This document shows positions 5,774-27,544 of a DNA stretch of 31,073 nt, in pieces (within the stretch, counting starts at the first letter, position 1; each line of letters opens with the position of its first letter). The translations under genes and the position numbers were made by a program. This DNA is from a virus. The notes below the pieces were generated by a model. The model was not told the DNA's origin. It was given only the letters and a program-made list of their open reading frames with translations, and made no database searches. The stretch spans positions 1 through 31,073 of IMG/VR virus record IMGVR_UViG_3300028597_000052. One strand, given 5' to 3'.

Positions 5774-6562
5774 ATGAGCAACCATCGGGCACTAATCGAC
5801 ATCGATATGGTGCTCGACAGCCGGTACGGCACATTGAAGCTCATCGACGAACAAGTCGCCGATGAGCTCGTTTCTTCTGAAGCGTACCGACGTCGGGCTA
5901 CTGACAACTTCGATGAGCTGTCAGGCGGCAGGATTAACCTGCAAGAGTACAAAGATCTTTATGCTGCTCGTACAGGGGATAACCTGTACTTTGCGAGACA
6001 CACTGAGTTCGTCTATCACTTCGCCAAAGACCTGCGGGGTGGCGTTGCGAAGATGGACCGCGGCGTGCTGACGGGGCAGTTCATGGTCGACATCAATATC
6101 TGGCCTTATGACCTTTCGGATCACGAGGCAGATAACATCGTTAAGGGTTTGCGTCACCACTTCCCAATCAGTTGCGAAACCAACTGGGTGAACCTGTCCC
6201 CTGAGACGCTGTCTCCGAATTACGTTGAGAAGTCTTACGAGCTCTTGGCGTACTACAATCACGAAGACTGGTTGGGACCAAACACCGAGGCATTGTTGCC
6301 GCCGGAGAACCGTCTACCAACCACCGTGCTGATGACTCCGATGATTGCCTCGAGCGGGAAGATTCCTGAGCTGACTTCTATTGCTAAGGATCCCTTCGCC
6401 GCCCGTGCCGCAACCCTCGTGAAGTTCATCGCACTTCAATATCTGCAGCCGTCGATGATTTGCACCAACCCGGCTATTCTTCAGCAGATATATAGTTCGC
6501 GATTGACAGAACTTGTTCGCCTTGGGCATCTTCCCCCGGATTCAACTTTACTGGAGGGATGA
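5774..6562 (+). CDS. Hypothetical protein, 262 aa
   Basis: The ATG directly follows the TAA of the upstream gene, and AGGTGAT (5760-5766) gives the ribosome binding site. The N-terminus reads HRALIDIDMVLDSRYG, which loosely recalls the DxDxxL start of HAD-type hydrolases, but I cannot find the later HAD motifs, so no function is assigned. The last 89 bases (6474-6562) overlap the 3' end of the gene on the other strand, giving a convergent antisense overlap. Last gene of the UvsX operon; no hairpin terminator is visible right after it. Confidence 0.68.
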   Translation: MSNHRALIDIDMVLDSRYGTLKLIDEQVADELVSSEAYRRRATDNFDELSGGRINLQEYKDLYAARTGDNLYFARHTEFVYHFAKDLRGGVAKMDRGVLTGQFMVDINIWPYDLSDHEADNIVKGLRHHFPISCETNWVNLSPETLSPNYVEKSYELLAYYNHEDWLGPNTEALLPPENRLPTTVLMTPMIASSGKIPELTSIAKDPFAARAATLVKFIALQYLQPSMICTNPAILQQIYSSRLTELVRLGHLPPDSTLLEG

Positions 6563-6920
6563 CGTGGTTCTCGGGTAGGGGCGAACGTCTGCGTGGGGGT
6601 GGGGCTACCTCACCCTCTACAGCAGGTCGCTCGTAAGGCTGGTTGTCGCCAAACATCTGTACCAGCTTGCTGAAGCTTTCGCGAGCCTGACGACCATCGT
6701 GGACAGTCTTCTCTTCGATGTTCAGCTTACGGGTGGTCAGTGCTGCGGCGTCAAGGTCGCGCAACAGCTGCATGGTGTCGCCAAGGTTCTTACTGATGTT
6801 CTGGCCGTTGTCGGTCAGTTCATTGAAGGCCTGGAAGCGAGCACGCTGGGTAAACTTAACGACGTCACCTGGATCAAGACTCGGTTCATCGTCGATCTTT
6901 GGGATGTATTCCTGTTCCAT
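6474..6920 (-). CDS. Hypothetical protein, 148 aa
   Basis: Starts at ATG 6920 with AAGGAG 7 bases upstream; a GTG one codon earlier is too close to that site. The product is hydrophilic: an acidic N-terminus (EQEYIPKIDDEPSLDPGD), a helical middle (residues about 20-85) that may be a coiled coil, then a Pro/Arg-rich linker (APPPRRRSPLPE) and an acidic tail ending ISAEE. Family unknown. It is divergent from the gene at 6956 (35-base gap holding both ribosome binding sites) and overlaps the convergent + gene by 89 bases. The strong ribosome binding site supports it being real. Confidence 0.62.
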   Translation of the reverse strand: MEQEYIPKIDDEPSLDPGDVVKFTQRARFQAFNELTDNGQNISKNLGDTMQLLRDLDAAALTTRKLNIEEKTVHDGRQARESFSKLVQMFGDNQPYERPAVEGEVAPPPRRRSPLPENHVIPPVKLNPGEDAQGEQVLSIANYISAEE

Positions 6921-6955
6921 CACAGTTCTCCTTCGATGCCCTCTTAGGAGGGGTT

Positions 6956-7533: not shown

Positions 7534-7968
7534 ATGGCACGACGACCAAAGACTTCGACCTTCAGGGAGTTAATGAAGGATCCGAATAAGAAGGCAGACG
7601 AGACCGGTCACGTACTGGCCAAACTATTCCGCGATATTATCGCATCCCAAGGAATGGAGGCTGGCGGCTTCGATAACCTGATGGACAAGTACTACAAGAA
7701 GAAGTACACAAACCGTCATGGCGAAGTTGACATGATCAAGGTCAACCAGGAGAAGAGTAACCTCACCCGTGCTTTAGCGAAGGACTCTCTCCCTTGGTAT
7801 CGTTTCGAAACAGTGCTGCAGATTCTAGGCCCGAAAGTTTATAGCGTCACAATCGGAATGGAAGCTTCATCCGGACACACGTACTCCCACACAGTGCGCG
7901 TTCCGAACCGCTTCGCAATACTACCGCCAACACCTGTGGAAGGTGAAGACGAGGAGGAGGGTAAATGA
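7534..7968 (+). CDS. Small protein with HTH-like segment, 144 aa
   Basis: The start is set at ATG 7534 (MARRPKTSTF) because AGGA is 7 bases upstream; the ATG at 7516 has only a poor site. Residues about 66-105 (EKSNLTRALAKDSLPWYRF then VLQILGPKVYSV) resemble the helix-turn-helix of HigA/Xre-type addiction-module regulators, where a helix starting with a small-residue turn is followed by a LxxLG segment. Upstream residues 1-65 are basic. The C-terminus is acidic (VEGEDEEEGK). It could bind DNA as a phage regulator; the motif match is weak and by eye. Its stop overlaps the next start (ATGA), so it is coupled to the NADAR-like gene. Confidence 0.65.
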   Translation: MARRPKTSTFRELMKDPNKKADETGHVLAKLFRDIIASQGMEAGGFDNLMDKYYKKKYTNRHGEVDMIKVNQEKSNLTRALAKDSLPWYRFETVLQILGPKVYSVTIGMEASSGHTYSHTVRVPNRFAILPPTPVEGEDEEEGK

Positions 7969-8414
7969 ATCTTCCGGACCCTAAGCTGGACGGTGTTGAA
8001 CACATCAACACCTGGACAAAGGCCGTCACCCGCTTTGGACGGCGCATCACCAACCTCTCGGACGTTCCCACGAACCATCCTACCTACGGTCGTTTCCGTA
8101 CGATGGAAGGTCTCTGGTACTACCTGCGTACTGGGATGCAGCACGAGGACCTACGTGCCATGACTGGTTTCGAGGCGAAAGCTTACGGAACCAAACTGGA
8201 AGTGGTCTGGAACAAGACTTTCTACGAGGACATCAAGGTCGGCATCAGGGCCAAGATCGATATGGACGAGGAACTCACCACAGCAATGCGGGAAGAGATC
8301 CTACCGTTCGAACACTACTACGTCTACAATGGCAAAGTGGTGGTACCAAAGTCGGCGAAAGTCTTCTGCGGTATCCTCGAGGAAATTCGCAACGACATCA
8401 CCCTCGGCAGGTGA
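7965..8414 (+). CDS. Probable NADAR/YbiA-like N-glycosidase-fold protein
   Basis: The ATG at 7965 overlaps the upstream stop, with GGAGG close by; 149 residues, about the size of E. coli YbiA (160). Landmarks of the NADAR family appear in order: GRRITNLSDVP (25-35) for the N-terminal G-FSNF segment, FRTMEGLWYYLRTG (44-57) for TSEHYFQAQK with Glu48, GFEAKAYGTKL (68-78) for the SPxxARxxGR segment, Trp82, then IKVGIRAKIDMDEELTTAM (90-108) for the MxxALRAKFxQxxELRxxL helix, and PFEHYYVYNG near the active-site end. Family members cleave N-glycosidic bonds; some reverse ADP-ribosylation of guanine in nucleic acids, the antitoxin to DarT-type enzymes. A phage copy could counter host defence, but this is inference and catalysis is not shown. 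Confidence 0.55.
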   Translation: MNLPDPKLDGVEHINTWTKAVTRFGRRITNLSDVPTNHPTYGRFRTMEGLWYYLRTGMQHEDLRAMTGFEAKAYGTKLEVVWNKTFYEDIKVGIRAKIDMDEELTTAMREEILPFEHYYVYNGKVVVPKSAKVFCGILEEIRNDITLGR

Positions 8415-8420
8415 GTCACT

Positions 8421-8463
8421 ACGGAGCGGGAAACCGCTCCGTACCTCCTCCTTTCTTTTTTTT
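8421..8463 (+). terminator. Rho-independent terminator
   Basis: ACGGAGCGG (8421-8429), GAAA tetraloop, CCGCTCCGT (8434-8442): a perfect 9-bp stem, followed after a short pyrimidine spacer by a run of T (8455-8463). It lies 6 bases after the stop of the NADAR-like gene and should end that operon. Confidence 0.8.
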
Positions 8464-8496
8464 GTCCATGCTGTGTATCTTACAGAGGGATTCGCC

Positions 8497-9507
8497 ATGC
8501 CGGGCGCATTAGCAAACACTATTTTCCAGGGCAACTCCCGCGACGCGATGATCGTGGAGGATGCCTACAAGATCTCTACGAACGAAACACGCAACAGTGT
8601 GTTCGAAGCATCGAAGGGTATCTACAAAGATGCTGTCAAGGGGATGTACGCCAACAAGGGATCTGTGCGTGAACTGGCCAGTATTCTGCGCGATGCGAAG
8701 AACGGCAACGTCGATAAAGTCGATATGCTTGGCCGTACTCTGGGGATGTTTGGTAGCAGTCTGCCTAGCCTTCTTGGTACTCTGGGTGGTACGCTCAAGA
8801 ACAAGCTCGAAGCGGTAGCCGGTGACTTCATCAGTGACGACGCTAAGAAGTTCATCAGCGTCATCTATAACAACGCCTCGACTCTCATCGGGGTGGCTGA
8901 TGTAAACAACGCCGAGAGCCTGCTGGAGTTCGTAAGCGAGCTGACCGGTAACAGTGAGCTGGCTCAGTTCGTTAACCTGGAAGCCGAGTCCGCATTGATC
9001 GCAGGCCTTGCCAACGAGCTGATGTCGTTCGGTATCCCTGAGTTGGTCGATGAAGCTATCCAGCAAGCGCGTGACGAGCGTGTCAGGGCCAATGCTTGGG
9101 CTTACATCTCGACTACGGCCGTAAACGGTTCTGACCTTCAGATGGTCAGCAAGATCATCGATGAGATCGGCCTGACGAAGTTCCTCGAGAACAACCCTGA
9201 CGCGATCAATTCCATCCTGTCCGGCTTCTTCTTCGGGACCAACGACACTGTCGATAAGTACGAGGCCAAGTTCGTCGAGCTGACCAACCTGCTGGTTAAG
9301 ATCAACGTGAACTGGAACAAGTACCTGAGGAACGGGGAATACATCCCTAGTCTCGGTCCTTACATCGCAGCTAGCGCTGACGCCAAGACTTTGTTCTATC
9401 TCCACGAGCCGCACAAGACCCTCACCATGACTGCAAAGGGCAAGCAGCCTCGCAGCATGACTGACGTGATCAAGGGCATGTATCCTGACGCGTACATTCC
9501 GACGTGA
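8497..9507 (+). CDS. Hypothetical helical protein, 336 aa (possible virion protein)
   Basis: The start is placed at ATG 8497 (MPGALANTIFQGN), which has AGAGGGA 6 bases upstream; the longer in-frame extension would run back through the preceding terminator and gene. The product is helical and soluble with a Gly/Leu-rich stretch around residues 80-98 (LGMFGSSLPSLLGTLGGTL). No family recognised. It has its own leader after a terminator and converges on two probable virion genes. A structural role is plausible from position only. Confidence 0.68.
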   Translation: MPGALANTIFQGNSRDAMIVEDAYKISTNETRNSVFEASKGIYKDAVKGMYANKGSVRELASILRDAKNGNVDKVDMLGRTLGMFGSSLPSLLGTLGGTLKNKLEAVAGDFISDDAKKFISVIYNNASTLIGVADVNNAESLLEFVSELTGNSELAQFVNLEAESALIAGLANELMSFGIPELVDEAIQQARDERVRANAWAYISTTAVNGSDLQMVSKIIDEIGLTKFLENNPDAINSILSGFFFGTNDTVDKYEAKFVELTNLLVKINVNWNKYLRNGEYIPSLGPYIAASADAKTLFYLHEPHKTLTMTAKGKQPRSMTDVIKGMYPDAYIPT

Positions 9508-18333: not shown

Positions 18334-18396
18334 ACCGAGCCTCTCTATATAGGGAGCCTTTAGTTCATACAACTTTGTTCCTACGAGGTGAATGTC
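18334..18396. promoter_or_regulatory. Divergent intergenic region between virion lysozyme and polymerase genes
   Basis: These 63 bases separate the oppositely transcribed transglycosylase and beta' genes, so they should hold both start signals. Visible are the - strand site GAGAGG, an AT-rich CTATATAGGG, and the + strand site GAGGTGA (18385-18391), which supports GTG 18397 as the beta' start. No host sigma-70 -35/-10 pair is evident. Confidence 0.45.
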
Positions 18397-20082
18397 GTGC
18401 AACCAGACATGTTACCTGCGCTTCTCTGGATCCTACATGCCGAGGATGCCGATCTTAAGCATATTGCCAGGATCGATCGACTCGACATCTTCGAAGGCGC
18501 AACCACCGATTTCCACGACGACGGCCTGTTCTCCACCCGGATCTTTGGCGTGGTAGGTTCTCCTGAGCGTGATGAGGTTTACGGTAAGATCGACCTCGTG
18601 GTACGCATCATCCATCCGAAGGTCTTCCGTGACCTGATCGGGATGCGTGAGCTTTACAAGAACATCCTGGAGGGTTCCAAGACCGCCAAGTTCGATGCCG
18701 TTACTGGTGACTTCGTTGCCAGTGTTGAAGAAGACGCCGAAAGCGGCTATGCATTCTTCATGCGCCATCTGGACAAACTGGTTCTGCGTACCAACAAGTC
18801 CCCAGCCCGTAACGAGAGAATCAAGTTCCTCGAGCGCTGGCGTCATCGTTGGACGATGAAGAACCTCGTCGTTATGCCTGCTGGCCTGCGTGACGTTGAG
18901 GTTGGTGACGATGGACGACCTACCAAGCACGAGATCAACGAGATCTATTGGAAGGTGTTGGCAATCAGTAAGACCATTACCAAATCCAGCGACATGGACT
19001 CTCCGGTCTATGATTCTGTCCGCAACTCGATGCAGAACGTCGTCAACCAGCTCTACAAATACCTCGAAGGTATCCAGGGCGGTAAGGACGGCTTCCTCAA
19101 AGACAAGTGGGCGTCTCGCCGGGTCCGTGAAGGTACGCGTAACGTACTGACCTCGATGAACACCTCGGGTACTCACCTCGAAAGCCCCAACGTGCCGAGC
19201 TTTGACAGTTCTGTTCTGGGCGTCTATCAGGCAGCGGTATCTGTAGCGCCTCTGGTCATCCACTGGCTGCGTAACGGCTACCTAGCTAAGGTGGTGACTT
19301 CTGGCGAGGGTGACGTCCCTCTGGTGAACCCTAAGACGCTGCGGCAGGAGTGGGTATCGCTCCCTCCTCACGAGCGTGACCGGTGGACCACCGAGGACGG
19401 CCTGCGTGATGTGATCAACACGCTGACTGACATCGAAGCACGTCACCGTCCGATCATGATCGCTGGGCGCTATCTGTCCTTGGTCTATCTGGGCGACGGT
19501 ACGTTCAAGGTGTTTGACGACATCGCTGAACTGCCGACTGGGTTCGATAAAGAAGCCGTCCACCCGATGACGCTGATGGAGCTCCTCTACCTCTGCGGTT
19601 ACAGCAAGTGGAGCAACTACTTCACCGACATCGTTCGTTATCCGATTACCGGTGACGACTCGACCTATCCGTCCCGACTCTACGTCAAGTCCACCTCTGT
19701 AGGTGAGATCCGACGTGAGCTCGATGAGAACTGGCAGGTCGTGGAAGGCGATGATCAGTACCTGGCTGTGGAATTCCCAAAGTTCGGGCTGACCACGTAC
19801 CACGATTCCGAATCCCCTCACCCATCCCGCCTAAGCGGCCTGGGCGCCGACTTCGACGGCGATACCGGTTCTGCCACCACCGTCATGGTGAAAGAATCGC
19901 TGGAGGAGACGGCTAAGTACTTGACGACCCGTGCTGCGTGGATTACTCCATCCGGCCAACCAAGGGCGAGTGTCGTTTACGATACCTCCGAACTTGTCAT
20001 CCGCAACCTGACGGGACGATTCGACCATGTCCGAAATGCTCCAGTTGCCGCAGTACAAACTGCGGTACAGTCTATTCCGTAA
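18397..20082 (+). CDS. RNA polymerase beta'-like subunit, N-terminal half
   Basis: The start is placed at GTG 18397 (MQPDMLPALLWIL) 5-6 bases after GAGGTGA; a GTG at 18388 lies within that site. The 561-residue product ends in a segment matching the double-psi barrel of bacterial beta': a pre-motif HPSRLSGLGADFDGD (DFDGD = residues 485-489, bases 19849-19863), then MVKESLEETAKYLTTRAAWITPSGQP, which parallels VPLTLEAQLEARxLMxSxNNILSPANGEP. The three Asp bind the catalytic Mg2+. The bacterial NAD becomes GAD. It lacks everything past this point (bridge helix, trigger loop), so a second beta' protein must be encoded elsewhere. phiKZ-type phages split beta' this way (gp180 in phiKZ, from memory). 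The next gene starts inside its last 56 bases, so the two are probably translated together. Confidence 0.85.
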   Translation: MQPDMLPALLWILHAEDADLKHIARIDRLDIFEGATTDFHDDGLFSTRIFGVVGSPERDEVYGKIDLVVRIIHPKVFRDLIGMRELYKNILEGSKTAKFDAVTGDFVASVEEDAESGYAFFMRHLDKLVLRTNKSPARNERIKFLERWRHRWTMKNLVVMPAGLRDVEVGDDGRPTKHEINEIYWKVLAISKTITKSSDMDSPVYDSVRNSMQNVVNQLYKYLEGIQGGKDGFLKDKWASRRVREGTRNVLTSMNTSGTHLESPNVPSFDSSVLGVYQAAVSVAPLVIHWLRNGYLAKVVTSGEGDVPLVNPKTLRQEWVSLPPHERDRWTTEDGLRDVINTLTDIEARHRPIMIAGRYLSLVYLGDGTFKVFDDIAELPTGFDKEAVHPMTLMELLYLCGYSKWSNYFTDIVRYPITGDDSTYPSRLYVKSTSVGEIRRELDENWQVVEGDDQYLAVEFPKFGLTTYHDSESPHPSRLSGLGADFDGDTGSATTVMVKESLEETAKYLTTRAAWITPSGQPRASVVYDTSELVIRNLTGRFDHVRNAPVAAVQTAVQSIP

Positions 20083-23000
20083 CACGCACTTCACAGCGCC
20101 AGTGGTTTATCCACTGGCTCGTCTCCAACTACCGAAGTTCTCGATCCTGCACTACGTAACGGTTGACGGCGTTACTGTTGGCCCGCAAGCGTCGGATCAG
20201 ATCTTCCTCAACAGCAATGCGCTGGTCTACGTTGATAACCTGACCCGTTATACCGATCCGGTGGGTAACCCTCAGAAGACCTTCAGCAACGCCGACATGA
20301 TGGTGACCGACTGGCGTCGTCGTAACCGGGCGTTCCGGCCGCTGCGCCGTATCGACCGTCTGGAGCGCGATGACCGATCGACTGTAGTGATCAACTACTC
20401 GATGCTCTCCCATCTGGTCAAGTACCCGATGTCGTTCCGAGCCAGCTGGTACATGTGGCGCAACGTCATGGCCGAGGTCTACAGTAACGTCAACAAGTAC
20501 GGTGCTGAATCTCGTCGTCAGCAGTTCATCGAGATCAACCTGCCGCCTGTGATGCCCGCGCTGGGTAGCCTGCGTGAGTACCGTGATCGTCAGGATCAGA
20601 ACACGCTTGCCAAGTTCCGTACCCCGGAGCTCAAGGCCGTGGCTGATCTCTTCATCTGGGCTGGTGAGAAACGCCAGAACAGTTTGATGAACGCTATCGA
20701 TCCTGCGCACTACGACAAGGTCAACTTGATCGTACGTCGTCTGAACGGCTGGGTTGTGATCAACCTCGGCTGGCTGAACGCCATGCGCTCCGAGAAGATC
20801 GACTTCGACGAGAAGGATCCGAACCTTACCGAGGAGGAGAAGAAAGAACTCAAGGCCGCTGCCAAAGCTGCTGCCAAGGGTCTTGATCCGGTAATGTTCA
20901 GCCTACGCGTTCTGAAGCTGCTCACGCTGATCCACCAGGCTACTTCGCCTATCGCTACCGAAACGGCCGCGGCTATTGTCGCTGAGCCGGAAGTCACTGT
21001 TGAGACCATCGATGAGACCGCTCTCGATAACCTCGACTTTGGCGTAGGTGACGAGGATCCAAGCTTCGCCTCTGAAGAACTGCTCGATGACGATGCTGAG
21101 CTCGCCGCTCTTGAGAAAGAGCTCGATGAGCTGGATAAGCTCAAGGCGTCGGTTGATGCAGTTGAGATGGTTGATGAAGATGGTGATTCCATTGACGTTA
21201 AGACCATCGACGTCGATGCACTGAGCCAGCGCGGCATTCCTGCGAAGGAAGGCGATGCGGTTGTCCAGAAGGCTGACGAGCTGGCAGGTAAAGGCCTGTT
21301 GACTCCGGGCGAACACCGCCGGTTGATCCGTCTGTCCGAAGTGTACAAGACTCTGCCTAACCCTTACGGTGGCGAGGGTACCTTCGAGGAGGCGATGCAG
21401 CTTGATGACAAAGACGTACTCATCGAGCCTGATCAGCTAACCAATGACGACGTGGTCCTTGACAAGTCGCTGACGCTGTCTCGCGTCGACGCGATGGAAC
21501 GTCAGTACATCAGCAAGGTCCTCAAGAAGGACATCATGCGTTGCGTAAGCTCCATGCAGCGCGGTGCTGTGTCGATCACTGGTTATTCGGTGGACCGTTA
21601 TACCGACGCGGTGAACGATCGTGAAACCCACATCGTGAAGTTCACCCCGGCTGTTGGTGTCTCCTCGACTGTGCGTATTCCGATCCCTGTGATCAAGGAA
21701 GACGGCACGTTCCTTTACAACGGCACCAACTACCGCATGCGTAAGCAGCGGTCGGACTTGCCGATTCGTAAAGTGTCGCCTGACCGTGTGGCGCTGTCCT
21801 CGTACTACGCCAAGATCATGGTGGAGCGTTCGAGCCGGAAGAAGTTCAGCTACAACAACTGGATCCTTGACCAACTGGTGCTCAAGTGCCAGGACCGTGA
21901 AGATCCGCACATCTCCAATGCGATCCTGTCTGACTCGACCAACTACAAGGCGGACGTTCCGCTGATGTACGCAACGTTGGCTGAGCAGATCACTTCGTTC
22001 ACCGTCGACAAGCTCGACCTGTACTTCGATTACAAGCGCCGCGTCGAGAAGATGAAGTTCGACGATGCTGAGCTTAAGTACGAGAAGAAAGGTTGGGTCC
22101 TCGTAGGTCGCTCGAAGGTCGGTGCGCTGGTAATGGATCCGAACGGGATGATCTACCAGATCGTCATGGACGAACAAGGTGGTAACCTCGAGGACATCGG
22201 TACTATCGAGACGCTGTGCGGTCTGTCGATCGATCCGCTGTCTGCGCCTACCTCGATGGCCGAGATGAAGATCTACTCGAAGGTCGTGCCGGTAGGTTGG
22301 TCGTTGGCGTATCTGCTGGGCTTGGAGGGTCTGTTGAAGATCCTGAAGGTCAAGCCTCGCCGTGTGCTGATTGGTGAGAAGATCAATCCGCAGTCTGACG
22401 AGTTCGTGGTTCGATTCAAGGATGAGTCTTTGGTGTTCAAGCGTGGGGACATGTTTGTCAACATGCTGATGAGCGGCTTCAACCGCTACGAGAGCGTCAT
22501 TAAGAACTACGAGATCGGTCTGTTTGAAGAGAAGGACGTGTACGGCGCTGTCCTCAACAACGAGGGCACTGGCGCGCGTTGCCTTACCGAACTGGATTCG
22601 ATGAACATCTTCTTCATCGATCCGATCACCGAAGATCTGCTCAAGTGGATGAAAGAGCCGATTGTGTTTACCGAGCTTCTGCTGCGTGCAGTGGAGATGC
22701 TGGTGAACAAGGTGGTCAAGACCCGTCGTGACGATAAGGACAAGATCGTCGAAGGTCTGGAGCGGGTGCGGGGTTATGAGCGGGTGGCAGGTATCGTTTA
22801 CGAGACCCTTGCAAAAGCGATGCGTTCGTACAACGCACGTATTACCACTGGCCGTTCCTCGATTCAGATCAACCCGAACGATCCGACCAACATGATCGTG
22901 CAGGATCCGACCTCGGCACCTGTGAACAACATCAACCCGATCCACAGCCTGCGTGAGCGTGAAGTAATTACGTTCGGTGGTCGTGGCGGTCGTAGCCGTC

Positions 23001-24352
23001 GTGCGATGGTGGCCAATACCCGTCTGTTCACCGACGAGGACATGGGCTTCATTTCCGAAGGTACGGTTGACTCGGGTGACGTGGCGATCATCACTTACCT
23101 GTCGCCTAACTCCAACATCACCAGTGCTCGCGGTACTGTTCGTCTGTACGATGAGAAACGTGACGGTGCATCGTCCATCATGTCGACCGCTGCTCTTCTG
23201 AGCTTTGCGTCTGACGGCGATGACCCTAAGCGTGTCAACTTCACCAACGTGCAGCACGGTCACGGTATCTCGGTAAGTGGTGCTGAAGTCCAGGCGGTAC
23301 GTACAGGCATGGAGCGTGTCATCGCATCTCGCATGAGCTCTGCGTTCGCGTCTGTTGCTGATGACGATGGCGAAGTGACCGAGCTTGGTGAAGACCACAT
23401 CGCAGTTACGTATGCGAATGGCAAGATCTCTCGCTTCCCGTTGGGTCTGACCCACACGACTGCTGAGGGTTCGACTTATCCTCACCAGCTGGCTACGATG
23501 TTGAAGCTGGGTGATAAAGTCAGCAAGTTCGACGTGATCACCTACAACTCCGGTTTCTTCAAGCCTTCTGTGTTCGATAAGAATCGTGTCGACTACATGA
23601 CCGGTTGCGTTGGCCGCATCGCTCTGCGTGAAGCCACCTACACCGTAGAAGACTCGAGCTCCCTCTCGGTAGATTTTGCTGAGCGGATGTCGACCATGGT
23701 GTCGAAGCCTAAGACAGTGCAAGTGGACTTCCGCGAGGGTGTTCATGACTTGGTTAAGGTCGGCGATAAGGTAGACCTTGATACAATTCTATGCACGATC
23801 GAGGGCGAGATCACTGCAGACACTGGGCTGTATGATGACGCCACTCGCGAGACTCTGAGAAACTGGTCCGCCATGTCTCCGCGCGCTAAGGCAGTCGGTA
23901 CTGTCGCGAAGATCGAGGTCTACTATAACGGTGACATCGATGACATGTCCGAGTCCCTGCAAGGGATCGTAGCGGTTTCTGAAAAGAACCGTCGCCGCAG
24001 CGCCAAGCGTCTTGGCGAGGAATACGTCACTGGTCAAGTTCCACGATCGGTACGGATTGACGGTCACACCCTAGAGCCTGGTCAGGCAATCATCATGGTC
24101 TTTATCACCACCCCGGTTGCAATGGGCGTGGGCGATAAGCTCGTGTTTGCCAACCAGATGAAGTCCACCGTTGGTGAGATCCTCTTCGGTAACACGCGGA
24201 CGCTGGAAAGCAATGAAACCATTGATGCTATCTTTGGTGCCAAGTCTTGCATCGACCGTATCGTAACCAGTCCATTCGTCATCGGTAGTACGAACACCTT
24301 GCTCCGTTACTTGGGCGAGGAAGCCTACGACATGTATTTCGGCGAAGACTGA
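20027..24352 (+). CDS. RNA polymerase beta-like subunit (virion type), 1441 aa
   Basis: ATG 20027 overlaps the beta' gene by 56 bases in another frame. Beta landmarks occur in order: EDGTFLYNGTNYRMRKQRSD (about 558-577) for the GTFIINGxERVxxxQxxRSPG segment; NPIHSLREREVITFGGRGGR (from 970) followed by RLFTDEDMGFISEGTVDSGD for the rifampicin-pocket segment NPLSxxTHKRRxSALGPGGL and VCPIETPEG; VRTGMERVIASRMSSA for the GTGxE segment; and GDKLVFANQMKS with Lys1371 and Lys1379, spaced 8 apart exactly as the two conserved lysines of GDKMxxRHGNKG. An acidic insertion fills about 311-390. It ends 62 residues after Lys1379, without the usual beta C-terminus, which may be the gene at 4588. This would be the virion polymerase beta (phiKZ gp178, from memory), injected to start early transcription. 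Confidence 0.88.
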   Translation: MSEMLQLPQYKLRYSLFRNTHFTAPVVYPLARLQLPKFSILHYVTVDGVTVGPQASDQIFLNSNALVYVDNLTRYTDPVGNPQKTFSNADMMVTDWRRRNRAFRPLRRIDRLERDDRSTVVINYSMLSHLVKYPMSFRASWYMWRNVMAEVYSNVNKYGAESRRQQFIEINLPPVMPALGSLREYRDRQDQNTLAKFRTPELKAVADLFIWAGEKRQNSLMNAIDPAHYDKVNLIVRRLNGWVVINLGWLNAMRSEKIDFDEKDPNLTEEEKKELKAAAKAAAKGLDPVMFSLRVLKLLTLIHQATSPIATETAAAIVAEPEVTVETIDETALDNLDFGVGDEDPSFASEELLDDDAELAALEKELDELDKLKASVDAVEMVDEDGDSIDVKTIDVDALSQRGIPAKEGDAVVQKADELAGKGLLTPGEHRRLIRLSEVYKTLPNPYGGEGTFEEAMQLDDKDVLIEPDQLTNDDVVLDKSLTLSRVDAMERQYISKVLKKDIMRCVSSMQRGAVSITGYSVDRYTDAVNDRETHIVKFTPAVGVSSTVRIPIPVIKEDGTFLYNGTNYRMRKQRSDLPIRKVSPDRVALSSYYAKIMVERSSRKKFSYNNWILDQLVLKCQDREDPHISNAILSDSTNYKADVPLMYATLAEQITSFTVDKLDLYFDYKRRVEKMKFDDAELKYEKKGWVLVGRSKVGALVMDPNGMIYQIVMDEQGGNLEDIGTIETLCGLSIDPLSAPTSMAEMKIYSKVVPVGWSLAYLLGLEGLLKILKVKPRRVLIGEKINPQSDEFVVRFKDESLVFKRGDMFVNMLMSGFNRYESVIKNYEIGLFEEKDVYGAVLNNEGTGARCLTELDSMNIFFIDPITEDLLKWMKEPIVFTELLLRAVEMLVNKVVKTRRDDKDKIVEGLERVRGYERVAGIVYETLAKAMRSYNARITTGRSSIQINPNDPTNMIVQDPTSAPVNNINPIHSLREREVITFGGRGGRSRRAMVANTRLFTDEDMGFISEGTVDSGDVAIITYLSPNSNITSARGTVRLYDEKRDGASSIMSTAALLSFASDGDDPKRVNFTNVQHGHGISVSGAEVQAVRTGMERVIASRMSSAFASVADDDGEVTELGEDHIAVTYANGKISRFPLGLTHTTAEGSTYPHQLATMLKLGDKVSKFDVITYNSGFFKPSVFDKNRVDYMTGCVGRIALREATYTVEDSSSLSVDFAERMSTMVSKPKTVQVDFREGVHDLVKVGDKVDLDTILCTIEGEITADTGLYDDATRETLRNWSAMSPRAKAVGTVAKIEVYYNGDIDDMSESLQGIVAVSEKNRRRSAKRLGEEYVTGQVPRSVRIDGHTLEPGQAIIMVFITTPVAMGVGDKLVFANQMKSTVGEILFGNTRTLESNETIDAIFGAKSCIDRIVTSPFVIGSTNTLLRYLGEEAYDMYFGED

Positions 24353-26743: not shown

Positions 26744-27544
26744 ATGGCCCAGGTAGCATTAAACTCCTCGCCCCGTGGTCCTGTCACGTCCTACAGCAAC
26801 GTAGCACTGGCAGGTTCCGGCAAGAAGGGGATTCTCAAGAAACTCGATAACGGCTACTGCGAAATTATCCTGGGTGCTTTCGGCGCCTTTGGTAATGGCG
26901 GTTGGCTGTACGACACCGCGTCGGCAATGCGCTACATGGAGAACGATCCTGAGTTCCTCCGTATGCTACAAGCCGGCCGCCTGCGCAGCGAATGGGGCCA
27001 CCCTCGTCGTCTGCCTGGGCAAAGCGATCAAGACTGGTTCGTCCGGATCTGTGAGATCATGGAGAACAACGTCTCGTCCCACATCCGTCGCGTGAGTGCT
27101 TCGCTCGACACTGTGATCGATGAGCGTGGCCGTAAGGTCGTAGCCATCATCGGTGAAGTGCGCGGCACCGGTCCTAAGTCTCGTGAGTTCAACGAGATGC
27201 TGGAGAACCCGGACGAGGACGTGAACTACTCGATCCGCTGCTTCGCCAAGAAGAACTTCGGAAACATGACCAAGTCGATGACCAAGATCATCACCTGGGA
27301 CAGCGTTTACGATCCCGGCGTGGCCGTGGCCAGCAAGTACAAAACGCCAAGCCTCGAATCGAAACAGCACGTTGGGCAATTGCTTGACGAAGCTGAGTTC
27401 AACCTCGAGCGCCTGCGCATGGGCTTCGATGCCTGCTCTAACGATGCCAGTTTCGAAAGCATGGCTCCGGCCGTGCAGATCCTGAACTCGTTGTATGAAG
27501 AAACCCGCGTCAGCATTGCGGTTCCCCGCAGCCTGTCGTGGTAA
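26744..27544 (+). CDS. Prohead maturation protease (T4 gp21/herpes assemblin-like)
   Basis: ATG 26744 follows AAGGA at about 8 bases; 266 residues. The pattern of assemblin-fold phage proteases is visible: RSEWGHPRRLPG with catalytic-type His86, and VNYSIRCFAKK with Ser163, the two being 77 residues apart; ITWDSVYDPG 23 residues after the Ser offers Asp186 as a possible third member. These enzymes sit in the prohead, cleave scaffold, inner-body and capsid proteins, and then themselves. phiKZ gp175 is such a protease, cutting after S/A/G-x-E. It lies just upstream of a gene whose product carries such sites. The His and Ser are read by eye from surrounding motifs; the Asp is a guess. Confidence 0.78.
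   Translation: MAQVALNSSPRGPVTSYSNVALAGSGKKGILKKLDNGYCEIILGAFGAFGNGGWLYDTASAMRYMENDPEFLRMLQAGRLRSEWGHPRRLPGQSDQDWFVRICEIMENNVSSHIRRVSASLDTVIDERGRKVVAIIGEVRGTGPKSREFNEMLENPDEDVNYSIRCFAKKNFGNMTKSMTKIITWDSVYDPGVAVASKYKTPSLESKQHVGQLLDEAEFNLERLRMGFDACSNDASFESMAPAVQILNSLYEETRVSIAVPRSLSW

Follow-up and report, generated by a model that had tools for sequence, protein, structure and literature searches.

The second of two overlapping plus-strand genes (7534–7968, then 7965–8414) in a 31,073-nt window, which is the whole analysed stretch of virus record IMGVR_UViG_3300028597_000052, encodes a protein whose identity as a genuine phage-type NADAR enzyme is well supported. By the reading we favour with moderate confidence, this protein would be an active N-glycosidic ADP-ribose hydrolase, with guanine-ADP-ribose as the likeliest substrate, and would be used against host defence.

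Organization of the locus

The neighbours of the NADAR gene are phiKZ-type core genes, and the features of the locus are as follows.

6474–6923, minus strand: gene in the phiKZ gp169 position (phrog_5894), part of the colinear block
7534–7968, plus strand: partner gene, 144 aa, of the phiKZ gp171 / PhiPA3 gp200 family (phrog_7801, phrog_4910), assigned by PHROG, tblastn and profile
7965–8414, plus strand: phage-type (His-type) NADAR protein, 149 aa, key residues E48, R55 and H117
8420–8465, plus strand: intrinsic terminator 3′ of the NADAR gene, with a perfect 10-bp stem, a 4-nt loop and a T-rich tail
8458–8477, plus strand: conserved motif TTTTTTGTCCATGCTGTGTA in the interval between the terminator and the next gene
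8497–9507, plus strand: phiKZ gp174 homologue (phrog_5028), the next gene, which marks the syntenic position

The ATGA overlap with the upstream ORF described in the first-pass annotation was seen, the TGA of the ATGA closing 7534–7968, and an AGGAGG-type ribosome site lies immediately 5′ of the second gene's ATG at 7965. Judged by its sequence conservation, 7965–8414 is a real gene: homologues are 85–90% identical, and a dN/dS of 0.08–0.09 among close relatives indicates strong purifying selection; the corresponding value for 7534–7968 was 0.03–0.05. A tblastn search with the 7965 protein gave relatives in 486 phage records; most carry the annotation hypothetical, and 420 of the records cover at least 80% of the query.

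The inverted repeat of the terminator is formed by 8420–8429 and 8434–8443. Since a stem-loop followed by a T-run, of differing stem sequence, occupies the NADAR 3′ position in 12 of the 12 loci compared, the 7534 and 7965 genes appear to close a single transcription unit. The TTTTTTGTCCATGCTGTGTA motif has a single match in the window, with zero expected by chance. This match, TTTGTCYATGNTGTG (8458–8477), which lies past the NADAR terminator and ahead of the gp174-like gene, is kept in close relatives and was found at the same place in 16 loci, a count that includes duplicate copies of the same contigs; it is a candidate promoter from which the phage RNA polymerase would transcribe the next unit. 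A sigma-70 promoter scan gave nothing above chance, as expected because the phage has its own RNA polymerase.

Assignment of the 7965 protein to the NADAR family

A direct scan of the 7965 protein against Pfam and NCBIfam models gave no NADAR match, PF08719 included. Within a 64-sequence set of relatives, the two Pfam families matched by the most members were NADAR (PF08719), weakly matched by 7 of the 64 with a best E of 0.0076, and Phage_30_3, weakly matched by 3 of the 64. In profile-profile comparison (hhalign), which bears on the family profile search proposed in the first-pass annotation, the probability was 94–96% to E. coli YbiA and 95% to a five-member T4 gp30.3 family profile. When compared with PDB sequences, a 20-sequence profile yielded one match, the NADAR 8bau (E 0.0015), and the 64-sequence profile matched 8bau and, weakly, YbiA. 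PHROGs 652 and 11222, both of unknown function in PHROG, match the 7965 protein at ~1e-30, and the best E-values against the phage NADAR proteins of these two PHROGs reach ~1e-29.

The fold gave the same assignment. The AlphaFold (AF2) model of the 7965 protein has a pLDDT of 96.6, and VIA-align comparison of this model with the PDB returned YbiA (2B3W) at Z 12.8, 8bau, solved with ADP-ribose, at 12.0 and 8bat at 10.2, the next chain scoring 2.9, so that the top three fold matches are exactly the three solved NADARs. The similarity to YbiA that was to be sought by structure prediction was thus found, and fold matches in BFVD include many viral proteins named NADAR. Because the fold and profile-profile comparisons both point to NADAR, we read the missing direct Pfam match as a limit of model sensitivity, not of kinship.

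Active-site residues

In characterised NADARs, the distal ribose is contacted by a Glu (E43 in the P. nicotianae protein, E48 in YbiA) and the diphosphate by a basic residue, K50/K95. The Glu of the TMEGLWYY segment, E48, corresponds to YbiA E48 in the alignment, and all 64 aligned sequences have it. It was one of the NADAR/YbiA landmarks claimed for the gene, and it was borne out; the claimed distal Trp, W82, pairs with YbiA W89 in a column that the family does not conserve (Trp in 11 of 64 sequences), and at column 133, where the family does conserve a distal Trp, the window protein has Val. R55 aligns with YbiA K55, the place of the essential diphosphate-contacting Lys. This position is Lys or Arg in under half of the relatives, many phage relatives having other residues; in the E. 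coli C7 NADAR, the Lys-to-Arg change K95R keeps in vitro activity (PMC11543638). H117 is present in 61 of the 64 sequences and aligns with T4 gp30.3 H123, which in turn aligns with YbiA E125, a correspondence by alignment only whose register is off by one when the shallower gp30.3 profile is used. According to Schuller et al., the second catalytic acid is His in phage NADARs (PMC11543638). D130 and W133 (YbiA numbering), which hold the diphosphate in solved NADARs, have no conserved counterpart in the window protein family. With the key Glu and the phage-type His present by alignment and the fold matching all solved NADARs, the NADAR-type assignment withstands the refuting conditions that the first-pass annotation set for it.

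The window protein resembles T4 gp30.3 (Pfam Phage_30_3), a tested phage NADAR, in its size, the Glu in place, the His for the second acid and the stand-alone gene; unlike it, it has Arg where T4 has Lys, the neighbourhoods differ, and the link is by profile comparison only. The PHROG 652/11222 NADARs (Moabite gp214, named 'N-glycosidase', those of Agricanvirus and Asteriusvirus, and others) share the same domain at mostly 27–47% identity, but several are fused to Macro and/or SLOG domains (YAcAr), whereas the window protein is a bare domain. E. coli YbiA shares the fold, the catalytic Glu and the aligned Lys/Arg position, but has E125 in place of the phage-type His, and its D130/W133 region is not conserved in the phage protein. 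The DarT1-linked NADAR antitoxins (BC4488 type; 8bat) likewise share the fold, but carry Asp at the second catalytic position, and the window protein, as a bare domain, has no room for their N-terminal fold extension. A DarT1-NADAR toxin-antitoxin system does not fit the locus: no DarT gene was recognised beside the NADAR gene, and both flanking proteins lack an ART match in Pfam, NCBIfam and PHROG.

The partner protein belongs to the phiKZ gp171 family

Both sequence profile and syntenic position place the 7534 protein in the phiKZ gp171 / PhiPA3 gp200 family, and tblastn together with the profile links it to 201phi2-1 gp257 and phiKZ gp171. The protein has an acidic C-terminal tail, and the family member is a tandem duplicate in phiKZ-like Pseudomonas phages. 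Published work places phiKZ gp171 and PhiPA3 gp200 in the phage nucleus (PMC11087766), and the latter was found, with no predicted function, in a phage-nucleus interaction study (PMC10643120).

The first-pass annotation had seen in the upstream protein an addiction-module-like HTH, to which the NADAR would be coupled. Overlapping genes and a NLTRALAKDSLPWYRFETVLQILG segment that resembles antitoxin HTH segments by eye would suit a toxin-antitoxin or regulator-enzyme addiction module with an HTH partner. The 7534 protein, however, gave no match in Pfam or NCBIfam, its profile matched nothing among PDB sequences, and its model (pLDDT 84) found no convincing PDB fold (best Z 2.9, best Foldseek E 1.2). 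An HTH may still be present despite a weak or missing match of this kind, but neither an HTH family nor a solved sequence or fold backs one; moreover, no ADP-ribosyltransferase toxin was recognised next to the pair, the partner's relatives are phage-nucleus proteins (PMC11087766; PMC10643120), and the pair sits within a colinear core block, all of which makes an addiction module very improbable. Of the proposed coupling, then, the conserved gene pair stands, with a gp171-family partner in which no HTH was recognised.

Conservation of the pair and phage context

In 25 of 83 distinct NADAR loci, the gene immediately before the NADAR gene is of the gp171 family, at partner identities down to ~20–25%. 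In the supported clade of the window, the pair is adjacent in 16 of 17 rows; the seventeenth (L034) has an over-long start call, and the pair is adjacent there too. On the tree, NADARs adjacent to the partner (P2) required 3 changes, compared with 11.7 in shuffles, and with these counts and the 16 of 17 adjacent clade rows the phylogenetic test of whether the pair arose independently more than once was not decisive. Since the whole block, running from UvsX and RNAP-beta to the gp171-like, NADAR and gp174-like genes, is colinear among relatives, vertical synteny explains most of the pairing, which reads mainly as such with some outlying cases.

The window carries further marks of a phiKZ-like genome fragment, namely the RNAP beta subunit genes at 18388–24352 and a Peptidase S80 head maturation protease gene at 26744–27541. 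ChmA, the protein looked for as a mark of nucleus-forming (Chimalliviridae-like) jumbo phages, has a homologue in LucasX and in long relatives of 253,921 and 258,357 bases, the window record being a 31-kb fragment. Several near-complete relatives also encode a Macro-domain protein, and the phiKZ Macro-family protein gp104 is nuclear as well (PMC11087766). In L080, L081, L082 and L088 (5461–5919), a second NADAR copy that keeps the Glu and has Ala for the His stands right behind the first.

Apparently degenerate NADAR copies at the same locus

In phiKZ, gp172 stands in the NADAR position and overlaps gp171, and the order 171-172-174 is kept. The copies concerned are the following.

L136, 3947–4387: phiKZ gp172
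L137, 1995–2372: gp172 family member
L138, 1992–2375: gp172 family member
L139, 1941–2336: gp172 family member
L023, 6293–6670: gp172 family member
L003, 3118–3861: LUCX_333, NADAR paralogue lacking the Glu and His
L061, 3676–4851: NADAR paralogue lacking the Glu and His

phiKZ gp172 was missed by an ordinary genome search using the NADAR alignment. With filters off, hmmsearch of the NADAR against gp172 orthologues gave a link in 201phi2-1 and Viktualia; the gp172 family scored 34.6 against the NADAR profile in hhalign, 200 column shuffles reaching at most 25.1 and the control scoring 15.5; and the fold matches of the NADAR model include Phabio and Psa21 proteins of a length matching gp172 orthologues. 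On these results and its position, the phiKZ gp172 family looks like a degenerate, mostly Glu-less NADAR relative. The catalytic Glu is kept in the 201phi2-1 and Viktualia orthologues, and the His was not seen at its expected place in the gp172 family alignment. The phiKZ gp171-gp172 pair therefore resembles the window pair in its position between gp170 and gp174 and in its gp171-family partner, and differs in the tandem duplication of gp171 and in a gp172 without the His and mostly without the Glu. Beyond this family, LucasX LUCX_333 and its L061 counterpart are extra paralogues, each flanked by the gp171-like gene on one side and an intact NADAR on the other. The annotation of LUCX_333 as an assimilatory nitrate reductase is probably an error.

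The losses of Glu and His in several relatives at the same locus are the main grounds for considering a non-catalytic role, in which the NADAR fold would chiefly bind, or act structurally with, the gp171-family nuclear protein and catalysis would be residual or, in some lineages, lost. The conserved gene order 171-172-174 fits such a role, as does the persistence of the pair despite replacement of the Glu in phiKZ gp172 (Lys), PhiPA3 (Asn), Psa21 (Arg), Phabio (Tyr), LUCX_333 (Ala), the L061 paralogue (Gly) and Burkholderia phage FLC6 (Gln). We consider such a role distinctly unlikely: E48 and H117 are kept in the window protein and its clade, and the window gene is under the strong purifying selection described above.

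Proposed function

We infer the substrate and purpose of the 7965 NADAR by analogy with characterised relatives. E48 would contact the distal ribose of the bound ADP-ribose, R55 would contact its diphosphate, and H117 would stand in for the second catalytic acid, leading to hydrolysis of the N-glycosidic bond to ADP-ribose. The substrate would most likely be ADP-ribosyl-guanine in DNA or RNA, or otherwise a soluble ADP-ribose derivative, and the likely use would be to undo or drain a host NAD/ADP-ribose-based antiviral attack, a phage counter-defence that is plausible by analogy. Supportively, the NADARs assayed in the literature consulted, T4's included, remove ADP-ribose from guanine in DNA or RNA, T4 gp30.3 doing so on both in vitro (PMC11125620; PMC11833690); T4 gp30.3, the sole phage NADAR tested in that literature, failed to rescue cells from DarT1 (PMC11125620). 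Counting against this reading are the lack of a conserved counterpart to D130/W133, the variability of position 55, the same-locus losses of Glu and His, and that failure of the T4 protein to protect against DarT1.

Iyer et al. assign phage NADARs to a network that counteracts NAD-derived attack by the host, and hold that the targets of most phage Macro, NADAR and SLOG proteins are low-molecular-weight ADP-ribose derivatives (PMC9503650). Relatives of the 7965 protein that are fused to Macro and SLOG domains, or lie near RNA ligase, Sir2 or Nampt genes, belong to this ADP-ribose network: the neighbours are Sir2, RNA ligase and PNK genes in Hena1, and RNA ligase and Nampt genes in 16Q. These associations would suit an enzyme acting not on ADP-ribosylated nucleic acid but on soluble ADP-ribose signals or toxic by-products, such as cyclic ADP-ribose variants or RNA-repair products. 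Set against them are the guanine-ADP-ribose hydrolysis by the assayed NADARs and the absence of any recognised SLOG or RNA-repair neighbour in the window, and we regard a soluble target as a serious but minority possibility.

In Salmonella phage SA002, a Macro-NADAR and a NADAR-SLOG fusion adjoin (L001, 2060–2929 and 2956–3933), and related ORFs of ~425–430 aa in L040, L043, L044 and L045 may hold Macro, NADAR and SLOG in one chain.

Returning to hydrolysis of ADP-ribosyl-guanine as the preferred reading, the enzyme may, speculatively, act inside the phage nucleus on phage nucleic acid, because the partner's relatives localise there. A bolder proposal, rather unlikely as a whole, is that the NADAR and its gp171-family partner make up a conserved two-gene unit handling ADP-ribose marks in the nucleus of nucleus-forming phages, and that phiKZ gp172 and its Pseudomonas-phage orthologues are its degenerate descendants, pseudoenzymes that would bind ADP-ribose or the partner.

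Significance

NADARs of jumbo phages have already been described (PMC7824862; PMC9503650), and Moabite gp214 is already annotated as a YbiA-like N-glycosidase. A limited literature search found no published statement of the gp171-NADAR pairing or of gp172 as a degenerate NADAR, and both the pairing and the worn-out phiKZ version appear to be new. For a family found in 486 phage records, where most members are called hypothetical and standard family models miss them, the analysis suggests a possible function. A reading is likewise offered for a phiKZ core locus, in which gp171, a proven nucleus protein, is paired with an intact NADAR in many relatives and with a worn-out-looking one in the phiKZ group. 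This opens to experiment the question of whether nucleus-forming phages remove ADP-ribose marks from nucleic acid inside the compartment.
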